Below are positions 10,393-19,264 of a stretch of DNA of 20,118 nt, one piece after another. Source of the stretch: a bacterium (GTDB taxonomy: Bacteria > ARS69); assembly GCA_025774805.1 (NCBI GenBank), contig JALGZR010000072.1:1-20118 (forward strand). The letters run 5' to 3'. Position 1 is the first letter of the stretch, and each line of letters starts with the position of its first letter. A model generated the notes under the pieces. That model had not been told where the DNA came from, searched no databases, and saw only the letters and a list, made by a program, of their open reading frames with translations. The position numbers were made by a program, and so were the translations under genes.

Positions 10393-11091
10393 ATGTCGGA
10401 ATCAAGGTCTGGCGGGCGGCGCGTCGGTCGGAGCGTGGTCGCGGCCCTCTTCGTGAGCGCCTCGTTTCTGGCGAGCCCGCTCTCTCCCGTGTACGCGGGA
10501 GAGTGCAGCGACGGCGCGCAGGACTACCTGACCTGCATCGAGCGCTTCGCGGAGGGTCTGACCGACGCCCGGCCGCTCCACTGTCTGGGTTGTCTGCGCT
10601 GGGACGGTCACGCGGCCCGGAACCGGTGGGCGGGACCCAACGCGGCCGCGCGTTTCCGGAGCTGCCGTAAGAGCTCACTTCGGCCCCGGCTCGCGACCGC
10701 CGGTCGGCGCATCCTCGATGGCCACCTCGAGACGGGCGGCTCCCGAACCCTCGTGCGCGAGCTGTTGCGGACGCTCGCCCACTACGGCATCGACCGGGTC
10801 GGAGAACACGACGTCTTTCAGCTCCTGACCGCGAACTCGGAGACGCTCTTCTACATCGATCTGGCGTCCCTCGGCGATCCCCGCACGGTTCCGCTTCTGA
10901 GAACCCGGTACCAGGCCCTTCGGGATCGCGGGCTCGGGAGCGATGCCGACCGCGAGGAGCTGGTGGCCGTTCTTAACTGCCTCTATCACGTTCCCACGGC
11001 GGCGGCGGTGCGTCTCGCGGCGGAGATCCGCGACGCCGAGAGCGACCCACTGGTCGTCGAGCGAGCGCAGTTGGTCGTGGACCGGCCGTAG
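10393..11091 (+). CDS. Exported cysteine-containing protein of unknown function, helical C-terminus
   Basis: I do not recognise this 232-residue protein. It has a signal peptide (about 1-35, hydrophobic core VVAALFVSASFLASPL, likely cleavage after VYA). The mature N-terminus has Cys38, Cys48, a CLGC pair (Cys64, Cys67) and Cys91, and a sixth Cys is at 196. CXXC with nearby Cys and His could be disulphides, a metal site or, with one His only, less likely haem (a CXXCH is absent). Residues about 118-230 look like alternating helices and recall HEAT-like repeats (LGDPRTVPLLRTRY, then a helix, then a similar one). The ATG at 10393 has AGAAGGGG six bases upstream; an in-frame ATG at 10369 is possible and would add 8 residues. 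It is separated from the glycosyltransferases by a hairpin and followed by a terminator-like structure, so it may be monocistronic. Confidence 0.6.
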   Translation: MSESRSGGRRVGRSVVAALFVSASFLASPLSPVYAGECSDGAQDYLTCIERFAEGLTDARPLHCLGCLRWDGHAARNRWAGPNAAARFRSCRKSSLRPRLATAGRRILDGHLETGGSRTLVRELLRTLAHYGIDRVGEHDVFQLLTANSETLFYIDLASLGDPRTVPLLRTRYQALRDRGLGSDADREELVAVLNCLYHVPTAAAVRLAAEIRDAESDPLVVERAQLVVDRP

Positions 11092-11100: not shown

Positions 11101-11296
11101 CTCACCAGGCTCGTCGTGAAGAGATCACCCCCGAACCGACCGCGAACTCCATTCCTGGGGGCAAGGCGGGCGCACGGTGCTCACCGGTGCTATCCTCGCC
11201 TCTCTGGTTCGTACAGAGGAACCGGTACGGGGGAGGCGCGGGATCGGCGATTCAACGCGAGTCCGCATCCGGTTCGCTTCGAGGAGTAGAGTCGGA

Positions 11297-12577
11297 ATGA
11301 GGCCGCTCCTTCGCACAGCGTTCGCGGGCCTTCAGTTCCTCCTCGCAGCGCTCTCGCTCGGGGGGCGTCCTCCCGCGACGGGAGCCGAGCGTCCGGGGAG
11401 CTCCCCGGACCTCGTGCCGATGCCGACCCGTCTGATTCGCGCCCTCGTCGAGGACGGCTTCGAGAACCTGGCCGTTCGGCAACACGCGGGTTCGACCTCG
11501 GTCTGGTACGAGAATCGATCGTACCGCGACGAGCTCGCCGCCCTCGGAAGGGTGGCCTTCCTCGCCGCGTCCGACGTCCCCCCCGAAGGGCACCTCGAGC
11601 TCATCCCGCAGAACCGTGGTGTTCCTCTTCTCTCGGTCGCCGCCGCCGCGGCGGACTGGCTGGCCTTTCTCCGAGGAGAGAGGCCCGCCGGCTGGTTTCG
11701 AGAGAGGCTCACCGTTCGAGCCGCCGACGGCGGGCCGGAGTCGATCCGCGCCGGCTCCCCACCGCGCGAACACCTGTCGTTCCGGAGAACGGACGTTCGC
11801 GTCCGCCCGCTCTTCAACTTCGAGCTCGGCAGCTCGTTCGATCCGTTTCGCTCCGAGTTCCAGATCGCGCCCGAAGCCGTGATGGCTCCGCTTCCCGGAA
11901 CTCTGCTCTCGGCTCAGGTGATCGTTCAGGTCGACAACGACCTGGACCGGAACGCGGCCCGAGTCTCCCCGGGGCGGTCGACCGTGTCGTGGGGGGGGTG
12001 GCTGCCGGGCGGGTGGCTCGCCGCTCTGAGCGGAGGGTACTTCTCCGGCGACCGGTACGGTCTGGCGGGAGAGACCGGCAAGCTCCTCTGGTCCGGAGGG
12101 CTGGAAGTGACGGCGGGGGGCGATCTCAGCGGGCTGCTGGAGTTCACGGAGGAGACCACTCGATACTCCGACCCGGAAACCTGGTCGGCGTTTCTCGGCC
12201 TGACGCACCGATTGCGGGGGGTCGATCTCGAAACGTCGGTGAAGGCGGCGCGATTCATGGAGCAGGAGCTCGGAGTGCGCCTCGACGTCGCTCGACGCTT
12301 CGGAGAGGTCGAGGTGGGTTTCTTCGGCATCAAGACGGAACAGGATGACCTGGTCGGGCTCCTCCTGAGGTTGCCGTTGCCGGTGGAACGATGGTCGAGG
12401 CCGTCGCGCCTCCGACTGACGACGGTCCCGGCCTTTCCCTTCGAGTACCGGGACTCGGTCGCCGACGTGGGGCGCCAGGTCTCTCTGTTCGACAACCTCG
12501 ATCGCCTTCGCAAGAGACTGTACCCGACCTTCCTTTGGAACAACCTAGAGGATGTCCGAAGTGCCGTTCACCATTGA
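11297..12577 (+). CDS. YjbH-like outer-membrane exopolysaccharide protein, middle plus C-terminal portion
   Basis: A 426-residue exported protein (signal peptide about 1-30). Compared from memory with E. coli YjbH (about 700 residues), it matches the second half. Residues 54-127 (GFENLAV through VWYENRSYRDEL to FLRGE) correspond to the YjbH soluble module with KYRDSREGIIRANR and KNHLAGE. Residues 166-300 correspond to the barrel strands, and the end (LDVARRFGEVEVG near 355, then GRQVSLFDNLDR) corresponds to LEIAKRF and GRKFQLYDMTSDR. YjbH-type proteins are beta-barrel outer-membrane proteins tied to exopolysaccharide production. The ATG has GAGGAG ten bases upstream; earlier in-frame codons lack signal-peptide character. 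The expected YjbH N-terminal barrel half is absent here but is encoded by the next gene, which overlaps this one by 26 bases. Confidence 0.75.
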   Translation: MRPLLRTAFAGLQFLLAALSLGGRPPATGAERPGSSPDLVPMPTRLIRALVEDGFENLAVRQHAGSTSVWYENRSYRDELAALGRVAFLAASDVPPEGHLELIPQNRGVPLLSVAAAAADWLAFLRGERPAGWFRERLTVRAADGGPESIRAGSPPREHLSFRRTDVRVRPLFNFELGSSFDPFRSEFQIAPEAVMAPLPGTLLSAQVIVQVDNDLDRNAARVSPGRSTVSWGGWLPGGWLAALSGGYFSGDRYGLAGETGKLLWSGGLEVTAGGDLSGLLEFTEETTRYSDPETWSAFLGLTHRLRGVDLETSVKAARFMEQELGVRLDVARRFGEVEVGFFGIKTEQDDLVGLLLRLPLPVERWSRPSRLRLTTVPAFPFEYRDSVADVGRQVSLFDNLDRLRKRLYPTFLWNNLEDVRSAVHH

Positions 12578-13307
12578 GGAGACGGGCCGGAGGCTCCGCG
12601 GAGGCGTCGCGGTGTCGCTGCTTCTGGTGCTTCCGGGCGCGGGCCGGGCGTCCGGGGACGAGCCGACCGTGTCCGGCTTCTCCCTGAACGGAACCACGGG
12701 GCTCGCCAACACTCCGACTGCGGAGATCTTGCCGGATCGGTCTTTCCGAATCGGAGTCGCCGTCATCGACGAGAAATGGGCCTACAAAGAACGGGGAAGA
12801 GCGGACAACGAGATCTACTTCGTGTCCGTGGGATTCCTGCCCCGCATCGAGGTGTCCGTCCGGGCGACCGCCTTCCGGGAAGTGCCCTTCCCCCGGGACA
12901 GCGGCGTTCCCAGCGTGGATCGCATGGGCAGTGCGCGGTTGCTCGTGCTCGAGGAGGGGAGATTGCCGGCTCTGGCGGTCGGAATCGACGACGCTCGAGG
13001 GACCCGCCTGTTTCACGCACTGTATATCGTTGCCACGAAGTCCGTTCTGAAAACGGAGACGGTTCGGGCGCGGATCTCGGCAGGGTACGGATCGAAGGCG
13101 CTCGACGCCCGGGGCCACGTGCTGGACGGGTTCTTCGGGGGGACGGAGCTCACGGTCTCCGATCGCGGCTCGTTTCTGCTTGACTATGACACCGAGAAAG
13201 TCAATGCTGGTATTCGTTTCCGAGTGCTCGGCCGGGTAGGCTTGCACGCGGCGCTCCTGCACCTGGACACCCTCTCCGGGGGAGTTGACTGGACGCAGGG
13301 GTTGTGA
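12552..13307 (+). CDS. YjbH-like outer-membrane protein, N-terminal portion
   Basis: A 251-residue protein that resembles the first part of YjbH. GTTGLANTPTAEILPD (47-62) matches the YjbH start block GVGLLQTPTARMAREG. It is followed by alternating strand patterns (EIYFVSVGFLPRIEVSVRAT) and AVGIDDARGTRLFHALYIVATK, which matches AVGARDIGGTGLFDAEYLVASK. It has its own signal peptide (about 17-35). The ATG at 12552 has GAGG almost touching it; a GTG at 12561 would have GAGGA at a normal eight-base distance and may be the true start. Either start lies inside the end of the preceding gene, so translation is probably coupled. No downstream C-terminal half follows: the protein stops after about one barrel half. 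The two products probably assemble together, or are two separate smaller barrels. Confidence 0.72.
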   Translation: MSEVPFTIEETGRRLRGGVAVSLLLVLPGAGRASGDEPTVSGFSLNGTTGLANTPTAEILPDRSFRIGVAVIDEKWAYKERGRADNEIYFVSVGFLPRIEVSVRATAFREVPFPRDSGVPSVDRMGSARLLVLEEGRLPALAVGIDDARGTRLFHALYIVATKSVLKTETVRARISAGYGSKALDARGHVLDGFFGGTELTVSDRGSFLLDYDTEKVNAGIRFRVLGRVGLHAALLHLDTLSGGVDWTQGL

Positions 13308-13441: not shown

Positions 13442-13933
13442 ATGGTCAACGATCGTCGCTCCCTTCGCTCGAGAATGGCGCTACCGGTGCTCTTTCTCGC
13501 CCTGATCGCGCTCGCCGGCGCCTCTCAGTGCTCGAAAGTCGACGACGGGGTTTCTTCGACGAACGAGGAACTCGACATCGACCAGCTTCTGCGCGATGAG
13601 CTTCTCCAGGGGGAGCTTCTCGATGACGAGGTTCTCATCGAGCAGCTCTTCAACGATGAACCTCTGCACGATCAGCTTCGAAGCGCCCCGCCCAGGGACG
13701 ACCACAACCCACTCTGGGTCTGCCTCCATGATTGTCTGAGGGAGGCGCACGACGCACTGCGCGCGGAATCTCAACTGCACCGACAGAACGTGCGCGACTG
13801 TCGTGGAGACCCGGAGTGCCTTCGAGCCGAGAATCAGCGCCACGCCGCGGCCGTGAGGGCGATCATCCGAGAACTCACCCACTGCATCTGGGGTTGCCTG
13901 CATACCCAGGGAGAAGGGGCGGGCGGTCAGTAG
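13442..13933 (+). CDS. Small exported protein with acidic 5-residue repeats and twin CX3C helical hairpin
   Basis: A 163-residue protein I do not recognise. The N-terminus has basic residues and a hydrophobic segment (13-28) ending in ASQC (Cys30); the Gln before Cys makes this a poor lipobox, so signal peptidase I or II are both possible. Residues 42-81 are eight degenerate repeats of five residues, consensus [D/E]-[E/Q]-L-L-x. Residues 92-154 are helical with Cys94-x3-Cys98 near the start, Cys120-x5-Cys126 at the probable turn and Cys148-x3-Cys152 near the end. This spacing suggests two antiparallel helices stapled by disulphides, as in alpha-hairpinin or twin-CXnC proteins. GAGGGA lies eight bases before the ATG. 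It follows the YjbH pair after 134 bases and faces the minus-strand cluster. Confidence 0.7.
   Translation: MVNDRRSLRSRMALPVLFLALIALAGASQCSKVDDGVSSTNEELDIDQLLRDELLQGELLDDEVLIEQLFNDEPLHDQLRSAPPRDDHNPLWVCLHDCLREAHDALRAESQLHRQNVRDCRGDPECLRAENQRHAAAVRAIIRELTHCIWGCLHTQGEGAGGQ
13565..13684 (+). repeat. Eight tandem 15-base units encoding 5-residue repeats
   Basis: The units read EELDI, DQLLR, DELLQ, GELLD, DEVLI, EQLFN, DEPLH and DQLRS. Position 1 is acidic in seven of eight, position 2 is Glu or Gln in all eight, and position 3 is Leu in six. At DNA level units 2-4 still share GAGCTTCTC-like cores, with CTT for Leu, which is unusual next to the CTC/CTG preferred elsewhere, suggesting fairly recent duplication. 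It is not a canonical pentapeptide repeat (A-D/N-L-x-x), because position 1 is charged rather than small. Confidence 0.75.
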
Positions 13934-13983
13934 GGCTTCCCTCGGGATCTCCGCGAACGGGGAGACCCCCGCGACCAGGACCA

Positions 13984-14013
13984 CCGCCTGACCGGTTTCC
14001 GGTCGCTCGGCGG
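13984..14013. terminator. Two-part hairpin between convergent genes
   Basis: GACCGG (13990-13995) pairs perfectly with CCGGTC (13999-14004) around TTT, and an outer pair CCGCC (13984-13988) and GGCGG (14009-14013) extends it. It lies between two convergent genes (ends 13933 and 14093), where a bidirectional terminator is expected. No T-run is present. A weaker hairpin, TCTCC/GGAGA, lies just before it in the same gap. Confidence 0.4.
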
Positions 14014-18034: not shown

Positions 18035-19129
18035 TCAGCGGAGGAACCCCCGCTCGAGCTCCGCGAGATCTTCGCGCGTGTTCACGTTTCGCCACGCGGG
18101 TGCCAGGGCGGAGGGTGGGGCGGGCGAGTGAACCCGTGGATGATCCGCGAGTGCGGTCGGGGCGAGACACCCCGTCGACGCCAGGCCCTCGAGAACGCGG
18201 CGGGCCCGCGCGTCGTAGACGGCCAGAAGCGGCTCGACCCCGTCGGCACCCCTACGGGGCAGGACCGCCCACCTGCCCGGGCCCCTCTCGGAGAGGAGCC
18301 ACTCGACGGCTTCGGGGGTGATGAGCGGCTGATCACATCCGGCCAGGATCCAGGTGGCTTCCGGCGCCCAGCGCATCGCGCCGAGAATGCCGGCCAGAGG
18401 TCCCTGCAGCCGGGGCGGATCCGAGAGGCGGGGGAGCCCCTCGCCGCCGGCGGGAAGAGGCCCGTCCCCGAGAACGACGACCCTCTGAGCGTGCGGGGCG
18501 AGAGCGTCCACCGCGCGGCGCAGAAACGTCTTCCCCCCGAGCTCCAGCATCTGCTTGGGGCGCCCCATGCGTCGGCTCGCCCCTCCTACGAGAACCCCGG
18601 CGTAGACCGGGGGCCGCCTCCACGCGTCCGGTAGCCAGGCATCGATGATCCGGCGAAGGGCCTCCGGTCGGGATCCGTTCCAGGGCAGCACCTCGATGAC
18701 GTCGGTTATCTCCGGCGGCGGCTCTCCTTCGGACTCCGAGGCGAGCCATACCTTGGGCAGCGGGGTCCGTTTGTGTCCTTCCACGAGCACGAGGTCGTAC
18801 GCACCGAGAAGCGAGCCCAGCACGGCGGGAAGATCGTCCGTGCGGGTCCGGATCAGCGACTCCTGAGGTCCCCGTAGGAAGACGTCGGCTCCCGCCCGAA
18901 ACAGGCGGTCGGAGTCCTTCCCCTCGGGATCGACGTCGAATCCGTGCGCCGCGTGCTTGACCGCCGCGACGGAAAGGCCCCGTGCCACCAGATCGGAGAT
19001 GACGGCGCGGAGCAGCGTCGTCTTGCCCGAGCCGCTCCACCCACAGACGGCGAGCACCGGGCCCGGTGGAATCGAAATCGGTGGGGACTCTTTGCGTTTC
19101 CTCGCGCTCGCGTCCATGGGCGACAGCAT
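18035..19129 (-). CDS. MobB-MobA fusion, molybdenum cofactor guanylyltransferase with GTP-binding adaptor
   Basis: A 364-residue two-domain protein. The N-terminal MobB-like domain (about 20-170) has a Walker A loop GWSGSGKT (30-37), the MobB signature GKDSDRLFRAGA (about 70-81) and VEGHK (116-120). The C-terminal MobA domain (about 174-364) has LVGGASRRMGRPK (180-192), GPLAGI, GCDQP (264-268) and a final WRNVNT block. MobA transfers GMP from GTP to molybdopterin to make the guanine dinucleotide cofactor of DMSO-reductase-type enzymes; MobB assists. The two are separate genes in E. coli; fusions are known in other bacteria, usually in one order or the other. The ATG at 19129 has a weak GAGAGA upstream; ATG 19117 is the alternative. 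No molybdoenzyme is in the window. Confidence 0.88.
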   Translation of the reverse strand: MLSPMDASARKRKESPPISIPPGPVLAVCGWSGSGKTTLLRAVISDLVARGLSVAAVKHAAHGFDVDPEGKDSDRLFRAGADVFLRGPQESLIRTRTDDLPAVLGSLLGAYDLVLVEGHKRTPLPKVWLASESEGEPPPEITDVIEVLPWNGSRPEALRRIIDAWLPDAWRRPPVYAGVLVGGASRRMGRPKQMLELGGKTFLRRAVDALAPHAQRVVVLGDGPLPAGGEGLPRLSDPPRLQGPLAGILGAMRWAPEATWILAGCDQPLITPEAVEWLLSERGPGRWAVLPRRGADGVEPLLAVYDARARRVLEGLASTGCLAPTALADHPRVHSPAPPSALAPAWRNVNTREDLAELERGFLR

Positions 19130-19186
19130 AGACGATTCTCTCGGGCCCCGCGACGCCCCCGCTGGCCGGACACCGACGCGGCGCGG

Positions 19187-19192
19187 TACAAT
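19187..19192 (+). promoter_or_regulatory. Possible -10 box upstream of the second GT2 gene
   Basis: TACAAT (5 of 6 consensus) lies in the 135-base gap between the divergent mobAB-like and GT2 genes, about 73 bases before the proposed GTG start. No good -35 box is found 16-18 bases upstream (the region is GC-rich, GGCCGG), so this is weak. Confidence 0.25.
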
Positions 19193-19264
19193 TCTCTTCA
19201 AGCTCCCACCCGGCCCCGGAGAGTCCGGGAACTGCCTCTTCTCTCGCCCCACGCGAGCCCGTCC

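Follow-up and report, generated by a model that had tools for sequence, protein, structure and literature searches.

The gene at positions 13442 to 13933 of the window (the whole stretch of 20,118 nucleotides that was analyzed) encodes a small, apparently exported protein of a family found only in YjbH-carrying genomes of two little-known phyla and nearly always located right behind YjbH, the gene of an outer-membrane barrel for sugar export, so the protein is probably a partner of a YjbH exporter. A functional link between the family and YjbH is, from this linkage, quite likely. None of the Pfam and NCBIfam models searched represents the family, which, being unannotated, would be missed by routine annotation. 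Its presence follows that of YjbH from one genome to the next in both phyla, which makes the protein a concrete and testable candidate for a subunit or substrate still missing from the system.

The six-cysteine family and the acidic repeat

The gene and its parts are as follows.

13442 to 13933, + strand: gene for the six-cysteine hairpin protein, 163 amino acids plus stop (open reading frame, homologues in 13 other genomes, family alignment)
13442 to 13528, + strand: signal-peptide-like segment, residues 1 to 29 (RR/R n-region, hydrophobic core, ALAGASQ before C30)
13529 to 13531, + strand: C30, the invariant seventh cysteine of the family alignment, in a lipobox-like setting
13565 to 13684, + strand: acidic/leucine repeat, eight 15-nt units, residues 42 to 81 (missing from the 25 relatives)
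13709 to 13915, + strand: predicted helical hairpin, residues 90 to 158
13721 to 13735, + strand: first CX3C (C94, C98), invariant in all 26 members
13799 to 13819, + strand: turn CX5C (C120, C126), cysteines invariant, turn length variable
13883 to 13897, + strand: second CX3C (C148, C152), invariant in all 26 members
13898 to 13930, + strand: Gly/His-rich tail LHTQGEGAGGQ (family consensus HxQGxGxxG)

The translated protein, rich in Leu, Arg, Asp/Glu and Cys, has cysteines at residues 30, 94, 98, 120, 126, 148 and 152. A preliminary description of this DNA had placed the reading frame and the last six of these cysteines exactly, including their symmetry about the 120-126 turn (residue 123 is the center of all three pairs, 94/152, 98/148, and 120/126), while C30 was absent from its list. 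Because an antisense open reading frame (13481 to 13984) has similar codon-position GC, composition alone leaves the strand unsettled, and it is homology that settles it. That the frame is translated is borne out by its retention in 14 genomes, by differences from the closest homologue that are most frequent at the third codon position (24/21/35 for positions 1/2/3), and by GGAGG-type ribosome-binding sites just 5' of the ATG in several homologues. The window gene's own start lacks a strong site of this type, and no promoter or terminator signals were found above chance.

A gene with all seven cysteines and without the repeat was found in a genome of the same taxonomic family (G004; JALGZO010000585.1). 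A profile built from these two sequences recovered a third homologue in another phylum (G198, E = 9.1e-10), and when the 47 genomes of this second phylum were searched, 12 of them yielded 24 matches in total. The final alignment comprised 26 members, including the window protein, from 14 genomes of the two phyla. Two weaker matches to the two-sequence profile (L027 and L028) had no such cysteine pattern and were lost with the 26-member profile. All 26 members share the frame C-X3-C-X21-C-X(5,10,11)-C-X21-C-X3-C, together with the seventh cysteine ending the signal peptide, and the invariant columns are C30, C94, C98, C120, C126, E130, C148, and C152. The X3 spacings and the 21-residue arms are thus constant on both sides in every member while the turn takes 5, 10, or 11 residues, which fits an antiparallel stapled hairpin. 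With all six hairpin cysteines kept throughout the homologues, the module is, judged from the alignment, not a product of chance. The hairpin proposal of the preliminary description thereby survives the refutation it had set itself, loss of the six cysteines among homologues.

No convincing known family was found for the protein in Pfam or NCBIfam, nor any credible sequence match in the PDB, and no homologue appeared in the plasmid and viral collections searched. Scattered Pfam matches (OATP at 5e-4 in four members, others weaker) were inconsistent across members and were discarded. A profile search of 386 diverse genomes returned only the three genomes already known to have the hairpin, and in 12 genomes from other lineages the cysteine-rich small proteins encoded next to YjbH bore no resemblance to the family.

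The repeat has a different standing. It had been described as eight copies of [D/E][E/Q]LLx; the eight units are there (EELDI, DQLLR, DELLQ, GELLD, DEVLI, EQLFN, DEPLH, and DQLRS) and the DNA period is real, but the motif is looser, with the literal form in 2 of 8 units and E or Q at unit position 2 in all eight. Shifted by 15 nt, the DNA has an identity of 0.57 with itself, which codon shuffling reached about 5 times in 100,000, or 2.5 times in 10,000 if the highest value over all lags was counted; at the protein level the period-5 identity is borderline (0.049, all lags from 2 to 12 tested). The idea that repeat and hairpin form a defining pair of modules did not survive the comparison with relatives, since profile searches recovered the cysteine pattern and the repeat occurs in none of the other 25 members. 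Nor could the repeat be taken as a family module by length, the linker after the N-terminal cysteine being 18 to 35 residues in other measured members and 63 in the window protein. The repeat is a private lengthening of this linker, and repeat plus hairpin is therefore not the family architecture.

Predicted hairpin and probable membrane anchoring

AlphaFold2 models, which rest on only two aligned sequences, were made for the window protein and for the repeat-less homologue (L025). The former was predicted to form helices at residues 90 to 120 and 124 to 158 with pLDDT of about 85 to 94 over most of the hairpin, and fell below 50 over most of residues 1 to 66, which take in the signal segment and run into the repeat; the latter showed helices at 50 to 78 and 83 to 114 (pLDDT 92 to 98). 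Together with the invariant cysteines and arms of the 26 homologues, these models agree with the helical hairpin proposed earlier. From the symmetry of the cysteines we infer that disulfides would join 94 to 152 and 98 to 148 across the helices and 120 to 126 at the turn. VKOR, sought as a disulfide-forming enzyme, was present in 3 of the 14 family genomes, including that of the window.

The closest solved hairpin was that of AAPP (4okv), which matched both models with an rmsd of 1.7 to 1.8 Å over about 60 residues (probability 0.95 to 0.96, TM to target 0.77 to 0.79, Foldseek E of 1.2 to 1.8), although many structures give a match to helical hairpins. The architecture proposed for the window protein, a disulfide-stapled hairpin preceded by low-complexity sequence at the N-terminus, recalls that of two mosquito saliva proteins, AAPP/aegyptin (30 kDa family) and SG7/albicin. 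In albicin, a relative of AAPP, the pairs are C58-C113 and C81-C91, with arms of 22 and 21 residues and a turn of 9 residues (PMC7948415), the same topology as that proposed for 98-148 and 120-126. These, however, are eukaryotic secreted collagen or complement binders with two disulfides, whereas three are expected here. With Foldseek E values above 1, homology to AAPP/aegyptin is not supported, and the AAPP/aegyptin profile (PF25001) did not match the window protein and matched one of the 26 members at E = 0.014. The likeness is most likely convergence; by analogy, it supports the feasibility of a stapled hairpin and not descent.

A signal-like N-terminal segment was seen in all 26 members, in line with the export suggested earlier, and in every one of them the hydrophobic segment ends with the cysteine equivalent to C30. 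Several paralogues have a canonical lipobox (LAGC, FAGC, LAAC, or LVSC) and most have L[ST]QC; the window protein, with ASQC, does not match [LVI][ASTVI][GAS]C, as Q precedes C30. Atypical lipoboxes have precedent, of another kind (PMC8038367), and signal peptidase I cutting before Q is common in Bacteroidetes (PMC5837995). The segment may hold either an atypical lipobox at C30 or a signal peptidase I site before Q, and lipidation of C30 appears likely.

Linkage to split and permuted YjbH genes

Two genes upstream of the hairpin gene encode the halves of a YjbH-like protein, and both matches pass the curated cut-off of PF06082.

11177 to 12577, + strand: separate gene for the C-terminal half of YjbH, lying 5' of that for the N-half (PF06082, E = 7e-11, profile positions 274 to 451)
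12552 to 13307, + strand: N-terminal-barrel half of YjbH as a separate gene, directly upstream of the hairpin gene (PF06082, E = 3.1e-16, profile positions 6 to 140)

In E. coli GfcD/YjbH the N-barrel comes first in the chain (PMC11494523), and the single-chain order of N-barrel, middle domain, and C-barrel is not kept in the window, where two genes follow each other as C-half then N-half. The same two-gene arrangement was found in G401 and G403, and in the other genomes with a chain complete enough, YjbH is one chain with the C-half first. Swapped halves, fused or as two genes, thus occur in both phyla (L029, L057, L056, L068, and others); this natural split and permutation means that the two barrels of YjbH can be encoded apart. 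In a further contig (G049:C214), the halves are swapped and lie about 2.3 kb apart. Two loci, L055 (G000:C31, in the genome of the window) and L071 (G004:C228), have a second YjbH-like protein that matches the N-barrel part of PF06082 only, with no hairpin gene nearby.

The link to YjbH-like genes that had been suggested from adjacency in the window proved far stronger. In the second phylum, the hairpin family and YjbH (PF06082) occur in exactly the same 12 of 47 genomes, which belong to three families, and in the window's phylum they share the same 2 of 5 genomes. The probability of such exact overlap is 1.9e-11 for independent genomes, a figure weakened by the relatedness of these genomes. 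Genus g352 includes a genome with both and two with neither. In 13 of the 14 family genomes, a hairpin gene lies directly 3' of the N-half of YjbH on the same strand, usually at about 100 to 150 nt (range 25 to 224), while the further neighbors differ. The association is specific to the two phyla: among the 386 diverse genomes, YjbH was matched in 33 and the hairpin in 3, so YjbH in general can do without the hairpin.

Family genes and YjbH are on different contigs in G417. Four tandem paralogues with turns of 10 residues, mixing canonical lipoboxes with LSQC, follow one YjbH gene in G410:C142 (L068, 4104 to 6011), and two follow it in G418. Paralogues away from YjbH were found in G420:C49, G421:C162, and G417:C346. 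At the first of these (L064, 6222 to 8967), a DDE transposase gene (PF13701) sits between two hairpin paralogues.

No YjbF/GfcB (PF11102) was found in the 14 family genomes, the E. coli control being positive, and a Pfam scan gave no PF11102 match among the 26 family members. Genes for Poly_export (OPX) proteins are present in all 14 genomes but on other contigs, which supports the pathway and not linkage.

Possible roles beside the exporter

The closest parallels are the small proteins of the gfcABCD and yjbEFGH operons. GfcB/YjbF (PF11102) is likewise a small envelope protein encoded with a GfcD/YjbH barrel; the GfcB lipoprotein binds GfcC and GfcD, and the three form an outer-membrane complex in E. 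coli (PMC8592465). GfcB is, however, an 11-stranded beta-sandwich, in contrast to a helical hairpin. GfcA/YjbE is also a small exported protein of the operon, but GfcA is 30% threonine (PMC8592465), unlike the helical window protein with its leucine, arginine, acidic residues, and cysteines. GfcD has been modeled as a two-barrel lateral-gate exporter (PMC11494523).

With these parallels in mind, we give about even credence to the window protein being an accessory subunit, anchored in the envelope, of a YjbH/GfcD exporter whose halves are permuted or split, a partnership suggested by the linkage. The hairpin protein would be exported by Sec, its disulfides would close in the periplasm, and its N-terminus would anchor it to a membrane, probably by a lipid at C30. 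A flexible linker, made longer in the window protein by the acidic repeat, would let the rigid hairpin dock on the periplasmic side or in the lumen of the YjbH barrel, where, as polysaccharide is exported, it could help to assemble, plug or gate the barrel, and so would stand in for the lipoprotein GfcB/YjbF. LptE, a small outer-membrane lipoprotein serving the lateral-gate barrel LptD, which exports glycolipid, offers a working analogy only, as its fold is different. Physical contact with YjbH, a role in export, and indeed polysaccharide export by these YjbH proteins are presumed in this scheme. Counted in favor of an accessory subunit are the co-occurrence, the adjacency, the g352 pattern, the constancy of arms and turn cysteines across variable turn lengths, the helical models, the canonical lipoboxes of some members, and the absence of PF11102. 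Against it stand the tandem and unlinked paralogues, superfluous for an obligate one-to-one subunit, the contig separation in G417, the count of 33 of 386 diverse genomes with YjbH and only 3 with the hairpin, the N-barrel-only protein of G000:C31 without a hairpin gene of its own, and the non-canonical Q before C30. A stronger version, in which the protein is a triple-disulfide helical hairpin lipoprotein, plugs or gates the barrel and, as a new obligate component of the exporter, replaces the GfcB/GfcC pair in two uncharacterized phyla, is tentative and rather doubtful.

The accessory reading is the most economical one; given the tandem paralogues, a role as cargo or at the surface is also conceivable. 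The hairpin protein could be exported or displayed by the N-half barrel of YjbH and stay at the surface as a matrix or adhesion element, as the paralogues behind YjbH, the variable linkers, the private repeat, and the suggestion that the GfcD N-barrel is FapF-like and could secrete protein (PMC9603273) would allow. The hydrophobic N-terminus ending in an invariant cysteine nevertheless suggests anchoring in a membrane, the core of the hairpin is under tight constraint in both phyla, and the Ser/Thr-rich composition of GfcA is lacking, and we regard such a role as unlikely. It is still less probable that the gene is a neighbor with an unrelated envelope function (e.g., metal or redox binding via Cys/His) and moves together with YjbH in a genomic island: patchy presence could reflect joint horizontal transfer, and the conserved His and Cys residues and the paralogues away from YjbH are compatible with it, but adjacency and co-orientation persist despite differing further neighbors, and co-occurrence is exact over several families and two phyla.

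Small TIM proteins of mitochondria are twin CX3C hairpins that escort membrane-protein precursors and have roughly 11 to 16 residues between the CX3C motifs. A similar role as a periplasmic chaperone dedicated to the two barrel halves of YjbH, attractive because CX3C pairs lie at both ends of the hairpin and barrels in swapped or separate pieces need assembly, is the least probable of those considered, since 49 residues separate the motifs in the window protein and as many as 55 do so in relatives, the turn cysteines are extra, the N-terminus is probably anchored, and small TIMs were matched neither in sequence nor in fold.

Three other genes of the window were noted. Just 5' of the YjbH C-half (about 10440 to 11091, + strand) lies a small protein with a signal-like N-terminus and several cysteines (GECSDG...CIERF...CLGC). 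An isochorismatase-family hydrolase (PF00857; 14096 to 14854, - strand) has a signal-peptide-like stretch before its domain, seemingly unusual for the PF00857 family, and the gene at 18038 to 19255 (- strand) is an apparent MobB-MobA fusion (PF03205 plus PF12804).
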